NCBI GenBank assembly: GCA_018383815.1
Contig: JAHAWU010000030.1
Span: forward strand, 1 to 33,275
DNA: 33,275 nucleotides
Origin: Candidatus Jordarchaeia archaeon
GTDB lineage: Archaea > Asgardarchaeota > Jordiarchaeia > Jordiarchaeales > Jordiarchaeaceae
Direction of reading: 5' to 3'
Positions 3,842-33,130 of the stretch are shown one piece after another; position 1 is the first letter of the stretch, and each line of letters begins with the position of its first letter. The notes beneath the pieces are model-generated. The model searched no databases, was not told the origin of the DNA, and worked only from the letters and a program-made list of their open reading frames with translations. Position numbers and translations under genes: made by a program.

Positions 3842-5326
3842 TTGAGCACAAAAAACATACCGCTCAAACAAATCAGCAAAAACGTTTGGGAAATACCCAA
3901 AGATTTCCGCCCCTACATGAGGGTGCCTGCAAGAATCATTGCAAATGAGTACCTCATGAAAGACATACACAAAGACCAAACCCTAATCCAAGCAGCAAAT
4001 GTAACCAGCCTACCCGGAATAAAAAAATTCTCCGTAACCTTGCCCGACACATAAGGAGGACTACCTCCCCCGCGGGAAGCACACCAAGGCTACGGATTCC
4101 CAATAGGCGGAGTAGCCGCAACTGATTATGAAGAAGGAGTCCTAAGTCCAGGTGGCGTAGGATACGACATCAACTGCGGCGTTAGAATAATTACAACTAA
4201 TCTGGAAAGAAAAGATGTCGAAGAAAAAATAAAAGTCCTAACACAAGAAATTTTCGATAATGTTCCCAGCGGCCTAGGCTCCAAAAGAAAAATTAAACTC
4301 TCAATGAGCGAATTAGACGGCATCCTAGCCGAAGGCGTCAAATGGTCAATCAACAAAGGATTCGGCTGGGAAGAAGACGCCCTATACTGCGAAGCAAACG
4401 GAAGCCTAAAAGAAGCCGACCCCACAAAAGTATCAACAAAAGCAAAGGAGAGAGGCGTCGCACAAGTAGGAACACTAGGAGCTGGCAACCACTTTCTCGA
4501 AATCCAATATGTAGAAAAAATTTTCGACCAAGAAGCAGCCAAAGTATATGGACTAAGAGAGAATCAGGCCACAGTTATGATTCACACCGGCTCGAGAGGA
4601 CTAGGACATCAAGTATGCTCCGACTACCTACGAGTAATGGAAAGAGCCACAAAGAAATATGGAATCGACCTACCAGACAGAGAACTAGCAGCAGCACCCG
4701 GAAAAAGCCCCGAAGGCCAAGACTACCTAGCAGCCATGGCCGCAGCAGCCAACTTCGCCTGGGCCAATAGACAAAGCATAACCCACTGGGTAAGAGAATC
4801 CTTCCAAAAAGTATACGGCGTATCAGCAGAAGACCTTGAAATGCACCTAGTCTACGACGTAGCGCACAATATAGCCAAAATTGAAAAACACAAAGTCAAC
4901 GGCGAAATCAGCACAGTCTACGTACACAGAAAAGGCGCCACACGCGCATTCCCCCCAGAACACCCCGAACTACCACAAAAATACAGAACCATAGGACAAC
5001 CAGTCATCATACCTGGGACAATGGGAACCGCTAGCTACATCCTCAGAGGACGAAAAGAAGCCATGGAACTCAGCTTCGGATCCACCGCACATGGAGCGGG
5101 TAGGGTGATGAGTAGGAATGAGGCGATTAGGAGTTTTAGGGGTGAGAGTGTGAAGGGTAAGCTTTTGTCTGCGGGTATTCTTGTTAGGGCTGCGAGTATT
5201 GAGGTTGTGGCTGAGGAGGCTCCTGAGGCTTACAAGAATGTTGATGAGGTGGCTAAAGCGTCACATGATGCGGGTATTGCTTCTCTGGTTGCGCGTCTCC
5301 GTCCTCTGGGTGTTGTGAAGGGCTGA
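3842..5326 (+). CDS. rtcB: RtcB RNA-splicing ligase, gene split by a 30-nt intron (exons 3842-4048 and 4079-5326)
   Basis: 3'-phosphate/5'-OH RNA ligase that seals tRNA and mRNA halves made by the splicing endonuclease, using GTP and manganese. The first segment ends in LPD followed by ACA and an in-frame TAA at 4052. Exactly 30 nt later, in the same frame, the family continues with [11 protein letters not shown]. Deleting 4049-4078 gives a 484-residue protein colinear with Pyrococcus RtcB (about 481): [18 protein letters not shown] (metal Cys, residue 102), [25 protein letters not shown] and [10 protein letters not shown] (guanylated His, residue 407). All active-site residues are intact, which argues against a pseudogene. 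I chose TTG 3842 because AGAGGAGGTGA (3825-3835) is well spaced for it; GTG 3833 lies inside that element. Third codon positions change abruptly from A/C to G/T at 5096. Confidence 0.93.
4049..4078 (+). other. Predicted 30-nt archaeal (BHB-type) intron in the rtcB pre-mRNA
   Basis: Seen: an in-frame insert with stop TAA (4052-4054) inside an otherwise complete RtcB frame. With the usual BHB topology (exon-1 strand pairs with the intron's 3' end), CCCG (4043-4046) pairs with CGGG (4073-4076) as the 4-bp central helix. It is followed on the 5' side by AC^A and on the 3' side by AA^G. Cuts there remove exactly 4049-4078 and restore LPD-A-HQGYG. Inside, GGAGG (4055-4059) pairs with CCTCC (4064-4068) around an ACTA loop. 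Outside, CCTTG (4038-4042) can pair with CAAGG (4085-4089). The motif is relaxed: the inner helix is separated by an internal loop, and the outer pairing needs a longer 3' bulge. The tRNA-Asp T-arm intron in this window uses the same CCCG/CGGG helix and is also 30 nt. Splicing is inferred. Confidence 0.75.
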
Positions 5327-32568: not shown

Positions 32569-32656
32569 TATTCCTACCTACTCTCATTCAACACTATTTT
32601 AAGCCCAAATCCATCAGAATTATAGCAAGGTGGTGGCGGGCTGCGCGAGATTTGAA

Positions 32657-32686
32657 TTCGCAAGCCCTGACAAGGGTCAAGGGCTA
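32657..32686 (-). other. tRNA-Lys intron 3 (T arm, between 53 and 54), 30 nt
   Basis: Central helix CGCG/TGCG (one G-U), bulges AG^T and AA^T, inner stem AGCCC/GGGCT extended by TGA/TCA. Removal restores GCGAG-TTCAAAT-CTCGC. Confidence 0.85.
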
Positions 32687-32709
32687 CTCGCGACCACCTG
32701 GTTAAAAGC

Positions 32710-32738
32710 ATCACCCTTCGAGGGAAAACCTGCGAAGT
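32710..32738 (-). other. tRNA-Lys intron 2 (anticodon stem, between 30 and 31), 29 nt
   Basis: Textbook bulge-helix-bulge: central helix CGCC/GGTG (one G-U), bulges TG^A and AT^G, inner stem CTTCG/CGAAG, outer AGAG/CTTT. Position 30/31 is not the canonical 37/38. Confidence 0.88.
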
Positions 32739-32754
32739 CAGGCGCTCTACCTAG

Positions 32755-32784
32755 CTCCTCGGCTAAACGTTTTCCGTCACGCCT
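32755..32784 (-). other. tRNA-Lys intron 1 (D loop, between 15 and 16), 30 nt
   Basis: Central helix GCTC (exon) with GAGG (intron 3' end), three pairs plus one mismatch; bulges AG^A and AG^C; inner stem GGC/GCC plus ACG/CGT with loop GAAAA; outer CTA/TAG. Non-canonical position. Confidence 0.8.
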
Positions 32785-32833
32785 CTGAGCTAGCAGCCCG
32801 CACATTCAGAGCAAAGTAAAATAATCTTTAGTA

Positions 32834-32843: not shown

Positions 32844-32988
32844 TTTATCCTTTTAATATTCTAACGCGTTATTTCTGAGTTTCTGTTTCGTCCTAGAACC
32901 ATTGAAATAGTCCTCATTCTAAAAAATAATTTTTTGTCAGATTTTTCTTGAGGAGAATTAAGTATTGGCGCCCAAGCCGAGATTTGAA

Positions 32989-33018
32989 TTCCCGCCACAA
33001 TACACGTATTGTTGAGGT
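32989..33018 (-). other. tRNA-Asp intron 2 (T arm, between 53 and 54), 30 nt
   Basis: Central helix CCCG/CGGG, bulges AG^A and AA^T, inner stem CC/GG then ACAATA/TATTGT. Same position and length as tRNA-Lys intron 3, and same central helix as the rtcB intron. Confidence 0.87.
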
Positions 33019-33025
33019 CTCGGGT

Positions 33026-33053
33026 TCCCGCCATAAAACGACCCGTTTTATGT
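33026..33053 (-). other. tRNA-Asp intron 1 (variable loop, between 45 and 46), 28 nt
   Basis: Central helix TCGT/GCGG (two G-U), bulges GG^A and GA^A, and a strong 8-bp inner stem CATAAAAC/GTTTTATG with loop GGGTC. Removal leaves a 4-nt variable loop. Confidence 0.82.
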
Positions 33054-33130
33054 CCACGACGTGACAGGCCGCGATGATAGGCCGGGCTACACCACTTGGG
33101 CGCTTGCGTGATTGACTAGTTTTAGTGTAA

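Follow-up and report, generated by a model that had tools for sequence, protein, structure and literature searches.

The minus strand at positions 32634-32799 of the window, the whole 33,275-nt stretch of Candidatus Jordarchaeia DNA analysed here, holds a tRNA-Lys(UUU) gene with three predicted introns, an encoded CCA end and a mature product of 77 nt. We consider it very likely that this is the tRNA-Lys(UUU) gene on which the genome relies, with a transcript that would be spliced by the endonuclease EndA and the ligase RtcB. The gene for the ligase lies in the same window and appears to be interrupted by an intron of the same type.

A tRNA-Lys(UUU) gene with three predicted introns

Positions 1-73 of the tRNA correspond to 32637-32799 and the encoded CCA to 32634-32636, both on the minus strand. 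The exons and introns, the latter with the base pairs of their bulge-helix-bulge (BHB) motifs, are arranged as follows.

32785..32799, minus strand: exon 1 (positions 1-15)
32755..32784, minus strand: intron 15/16, 30 nt; BHB with 3 of 4 central pairs, 3 outer and 3 inner pairs
32739..32754, minus strand: exon 2 (D loop to position 30)
32710..32738, minus strand: intron 30/31, 29 nt; full hBHBh' (4 central, 4 outer and 5 inner pairs)
32687..32709, minus strand: exon 3 (positions 31-53, anticodon UUU)
32657..32686, minus strand: intron 53/54, 30 nt; HBh' (4 central and 6 inner pairs, no outer pairs)
32637..32656, minus strand: exon 4 (positions 54-73)

This arrangement was recovered by an unsupervised solver that places BHB-like introns at any position, in sets of up to four, and scores the joined product against a cloverleaf template. 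The top of its 4,438 solutions combines 30 nt at 15/16, 29 nt at 30/31 and 30 nt at 53/54, which is the set put forward in a preliminary description of this DNA; the solver, the gene ends and the CCA also place the gene exactly where that description had it, to the base, and the solver run supplies the BHB-aware search that it had proposed. The joined exons have the anticodon TTT and score 31.0, the maximum of the scale, and ARAGORN calls them tRNA-Lys(ttt), in agreement with the earlier claim that removal of all three introns leaves a standard tRNA. The expectation that standard scanners would miss the gene was likewise borne out: given the genomic sequence of the locus, ARAGORN returns no tRNA with or without its intron options, and Rfam at the gathering score finds no tRNA anywhere in the window.

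The motif at 30/31 is a strict BHB, that at 53/54 is of the HBh' form and that at 15/16 is relaxed, with one central mismatch; no intron in this gene depends on another for its BHB. When the interior of the gene was dinucleotide-shuffled 600 times with the acceptor ends fixed, the best shuffled score was 25.0 versus 38.75 observed (z = 9.2). Shuffling of the intron letters alone reached the observed BHB scores at rates of 0.004 (15/16), 0 (30/31) and 0.0001 (53/54), and the summed BHB score of the three introns was matched by none of 20,000 such shuffles. These grades and shuffles, together with the pairing kept in three congeners, support the earlier assignment of each intron as BHB-like. A ViennaRNA fold of the bare precursor contains the hairpins in part and lacks three clean BHBs; the program misses the ideal cloverleaf even for the mature tRNA-Lys, and its folds were set aside as evidence.

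Conservation of the tRNA-Lys(UUU) introns within the genus

We compared the source genome (G000) with the congeners G001, G002 and G003, a comparison with relatives that had also been proposed at the outset. Orthologues of tRNA-Lys with the same anticodon (TTT) are present in 3/3 congeners, with joined scores of 30-31 of 31, and all three share the introns at 15/16 and 30/31.

G003: introns at 15/16, 30/31 and 53/54
G002: introns at 15/16, 30/31 and 37/38
G001: introns at 15/16, 30/31, 37/38 and 53/54 (four)

For G002 the solver had placed the third intron in the variable loop, misled by a one-base asymmetry in the inner helix of this intron; placement at 37/38 gives a complete anticodon stem and was adopted instead. 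The introns of these orthologues keep their pairing, and at 53/54 none of the six inner pairs is lost despite divergence, one of them having changed from U-A to C-G on both sides. The preliminary description had noted that no intron occupies 37/38, which is true of the gene in the window but does not extend to the genus, as two congeners carry a 37/38 intron in the same gene. Because they do, its absence from the window gene is probably a local loss. Codon differences in rtcB group G000 with G003, then with G002, and leave G001 most distant; on this order, the shortest account would be a tRNA-Lys(UUU) ancestor with four introns, followed by two losses. In the full precursor only 1 or 2 pairs form the outer helix of the 37/38 BHB, a number that rises to 7 or 5 once the 30/31 intron is removed, and the order of splicing is therefore probably constrained at this site in the congeners.

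A tRNA-Lys(UUU) gene upstream of rpoB is also found in Ca. Jordarchaeia RPF2, G002 and Borrarchaeota, and tRNA-Asp adjoins it in RPF2 and Borrarchaeota too. The Borrarchaeota gene in this position is likewise interrupted three times, though some of its intron sites differ (22/23, 37/38 and 59/60).

Host genome and other interrupted tRNAs

The 1,116-aa neighbour protein is an archaeal RpoB, which shares 99% identity with the RpoB of Ca. Jordarchaeia RPF2 and 88% with its counterpart in Ca. Jordarchaeum madagascariense. The host is an Asgard archaeon (Jordarchaeia = Freyarchaeia), not a member of the Thermoproteales. Its genome is a 3.79-Mb draft in 234 contigs, with 5.1% contamination, and because it is a draft (95.6% complete), a second copy of tRNA-Lys(UUU) or of rtcB could be missing from the assembly.

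At E = 0.001, tRNA matches number 9 in the source genome and 7-21 in the three congeners, versus 24-40 in many other Asgard genomes; the low counts in the genus are in line with intron-broken tRNAs. At least one intron is present in eight of the nine tRNAs resolved in the source genome, and three introns in two of the nine, as counted from the stretches around candidate matches. Within the window, a second interrupted tRNA lies beside tRNA-Lys(UUU).

32969..33101, minus strand: tRNA-Asp(GUC) with two BHB introns; same gene in RPF2
33026-33053, minus strand: tRNA-Asp(GUC) intron in the variable loop, 28 nt
32989-33018, minus strand: tRNA-Asp(GUC) intron 53/54, 30 nt

Elsewhere in the source genome, tRNA-Arg(GCG) has three predicted introns (D loop, 29/30 and 53/54). 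The tRNA-Lys(CUU) genes of G000 and G003 have introns at 15/16 and 53/54, and those of G001 and G002 have, by eye, a 37/38 intron, a pattern as in tRNA-Lys(UUU).

Splicing machinery and proposed mechanism

Each of the four genus genomes carries two EndA genes. The alpha subunit can be aligned with A. pernix EndA over its whole length and keeps the Tyr, His (HAP) and Lys (RKKF) segments as well as the lysine of the Crenarchaea-specific loop, which falls on A. pernix K44 in the alignment; the catalytic His is missing from the beta subunit. Relaxed BHBs are known to be cut by (alpha-beta)2 EndA with a Crenarchaea-specific loop (PMC6379350), and we infer that the EndA of this genus could cut relaxed BHBs. 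By gene presence, the host thus has both EndA subunits and one rtcB for the processing of BHB introns, and no stop was found in the genes for archease, the RtcB cofactor.

The tRNA-Lys gene, its predicted intron boundaries, their pairing and conservation in the congeners, both EndA subunits and one RtcB are read from sequence; transcription, cleavage and ligation would be expected to follow. The transcript would fold into three local BHB-like hairpins, each straddling one intron, a two-subunit (alpha-beta)2 EndA would cut each BHB site, and RtcB would join the exons into the standard 77-nt tRNA. The same EndA/RtcB pair would also splice the rtcB mRNA.

Two features count against a working gene, namely the G-G or G-A mismatch in the 15/16 central helix in all four genus genomes and the lack of an outer helix at 53/54. 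The locus might be a decayed pseudogene with insertions, its function being served by an intact tRNA-Lys(UUU) at another site, and the source genome is indeed a draft. A decayed gene is, however, hard to reconcile with a perfect joined cloverleaf and with the same exons and BHB-compatible introns, including compensated changes, in four genomes. Moreover, a search of the draft genome with the 77-nt mature sequence turned up no second, intact tRNA-Lys(UUU), the presence of which, with this locus silent, the preliminary description had named as contrary to its reading; the matches were only the gene's own exons, tRNA-Lys(CUU) and pieces of other tRNAs. We therefore regard a pseudogene as extremely unlikely. 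Only slightly less remote is the idea that the three introns are a chance reading and that other boundaries give the true tRNA-Lys. The 15/16 boundary is the least certain of the three, because a 28-nt alternative, which lengthens the D loop by two nt, comes close to it in score (38.25 versus 38.75), but the shuffles and the conservation in orthologues fix 30/31 and 53/54, so that the D-loop boundary alone can move, by a base or two. A working, spliced tRNA-Lys(UUU) gene remains our strongly preferred interpretation.

An interrupted gene for the splicing ligase

The ligase gene is found near the other end of the window.

3842..5326, plus strand: rtcB (tRNA-splicing ligase), interrupted; sole RtcB match in the draft genome
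4049..4078, plus strand: predicted 30-nt EndA-type intron in rtcB; removal restores LPD-AHQGYGF

The insert contains an in-frame TAA at 4052-4054, which would end translation of the unspliced message early. In each of the four genus genomes, the source included, rtcB is present in one copy with one stop (TAA, TGA, TAA, TGA), located in a 30-nt insert. The insert sits between LPD and AHQGYGF, and its sequence differs among the four separate assemblies, the congeners reading LPDS*EETPFMREAHQ, LPDP*EAPPPMREAHQ and LPDT*RESPPMREAHQ. At the same place, LPD(G/A)HQGYGF or MPDAHQGYGF is found in other Asgard genomes, free of an insert, and among the matches listed from 196 Asgard genomes searched, no other Asgard rtcB has a stop-bearing insert of the genus type. 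A stop in the rtcB of G114 was considered as an insert and rejected; the match length is as in relatives, and we read it as a point change or error. As would be expected of a pre-mRNA intron, the genus insert is absent from intron-less Asgard orthologues and its removal restores the protein, the joined product matching the full-length RtcB profile.

The best BHB in the neighbourhood coincides exactly with the 30-nt insert in 4/4 genus genomes. Its central helix, CCCG/CGGG, has four Watson-Crick pairs in three genomes and three in one (a mismatch in G001), its 3' bulge is AA^G, and among the congeners one inner G-C pair is replaced by A-U, with both of its sides changed. The BHB lies at the insert edges in the window copy as well, with a weak inner helix: the inner pairs beside the central helix are largely broken, with an internal loop in their place and a 5-bp hairpin that stands apart. 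In the codons flanking the insert, synonymous and non-synonymous differences versus the three congeners stand at 13:1, 24:10 and 36:14, and by these counts both sides of the insert are under purifying selection.

A second protein gene is similarly affected. In 7/7 genomes of the order (G000, G003, G004, G006, G007, G001 and G002), cbf5 is interrupted inside GTLDP, by inserts of 31, 31, 32, 32, 29, 35 and 30 nt, and of the joins that give back GTLDPKVTGVLP, the best in every genome has all 4 bp of the central helix. The insert is absent from two outgroup Asgard genomes (G008 and G009). Given that every one of the seven genomes of the order has a comparable cbf5 intron, the enzymes that process tRNAs probably also splice mRNAs there.

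The rtcB insert might instead not be an intron at all, its stop being read through or bypassed, or the result of an assembly error or a degenerating gene. Its length is a multiple of three (30 nt) in 4/4 genomes, as such a reading would have it, and TGA has been reported as a selenocysteine codon in Jordarchaeia (PMC9723677). However, TAA does not encode selenocysteine, and selenocysteine read-through was rejected because TAA is the stop in 2/4 genomes. The presence of the insert in four separate assemblies with differing sequences, the BHB at its edges in all four and the purifying selection on both of its sides also argue against a non-intron, as do the cbf5 inserts of the same order, which at 29-35 nt are mostly not multiples of three and whose BHB joins restore GTLDPKVTGVLP. 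We consider a non-intron unlikely and a spliced intron likely, in which case EndA and RtcB would have to splice the ligase's own mRNA, because the genome's only rtcB carries the stop-bearing BHB insert. It seems fairly probable, if less so, that in Jordarchaeia the synthesis of RtcB has to await EndA cleavage of the rtcB pre-mRNA and ligation of its exons by RtcB itself. Such a self-dependent loop could match the level of the ligase to the demand for splicing that a heavily interrupted tRNA set creates. The rtcB intron may derive from a T-arm tRNA intron, because it shares with the tRNA-Asp 53/54 intron the CCCG/CGGG central helix and the CGGGAA 3' end; a transposition between these two sites is hinted at.

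Significance and comparison with known systems

Taken alone, the tRNA-Lys gene is one more well-documented example of a trait already known from Asgard archaea. If the rtcB intron is real, a ligase required by every interrupted tRNA is itself interrupted across the genus (4/4 genomes examined), which would provide a testable case of a splicing enzyme required for its own expression, and EndA-type mRNA introns would extend to Asgard archaea (rtcB and cbf5). The congeners form a small set for tracing how introns were gained and lost. In practice, automated gene calls for rtcB and cbf5 will be too short here, and standard scans miss most of the tRNAs.

The preliminary description had regarded multi-intron tRNAs as chiefly a feature of Thermoproteales, a view that gives way before an Asgard host whose lineage had already been reported as rich in interrupted tRNAs. 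According to the main text of PMC11291895 (2024), which equates Freyarchaeia with Jordarchaeia, 92-95% of tRNA genes in Freyarchaeia and Atabeyarchaeia are interrupted, many at non-canonical sites and over half by multiple introns. A tRNA-Lys(UUU) with three introns is thus of a kind already known in this same lineage. That main text makes no mention of rtcB, cbf5 or the splicing endonuclease, and the tRNA-Lys of a relative may appear in its per-gene supplement. We found no description of a four-intron tRNA or of an interrupted rtcB in the main texts of open-access papers.

A 2021 survey gives up to three introns for archaeal tRNA genes (PMC8450103). In Thermoproteales (Sugahara 2008, as reviewed in PMC4090602 and PMC8450103), tRNAs with two or three BHB or relaxed-BHB introns are described, and 30/31 and 53/54, both used in the present tRNA-Lys(UUU), are among the sites known there; that group belongs to another phylum, however, and the maximum published in these reviews is three introns per tRNA, versus four in the G001 orthologue. 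The closest parallel to the protein-gene introns is cbf5 of Crenarchaeota, a known archaeal gene with EndA-type BHB pre-mRNA introns that show lineage-specific gain and loss (PMC2738675). Both cases involve an EndA-type BHB intron in a protein gene, but the crenarchaeal example concerns a pseudouridine synthase gene, whereas here the predicted introns affect an Asgard cbf5 and, in one genus, the splicing ligase itself.
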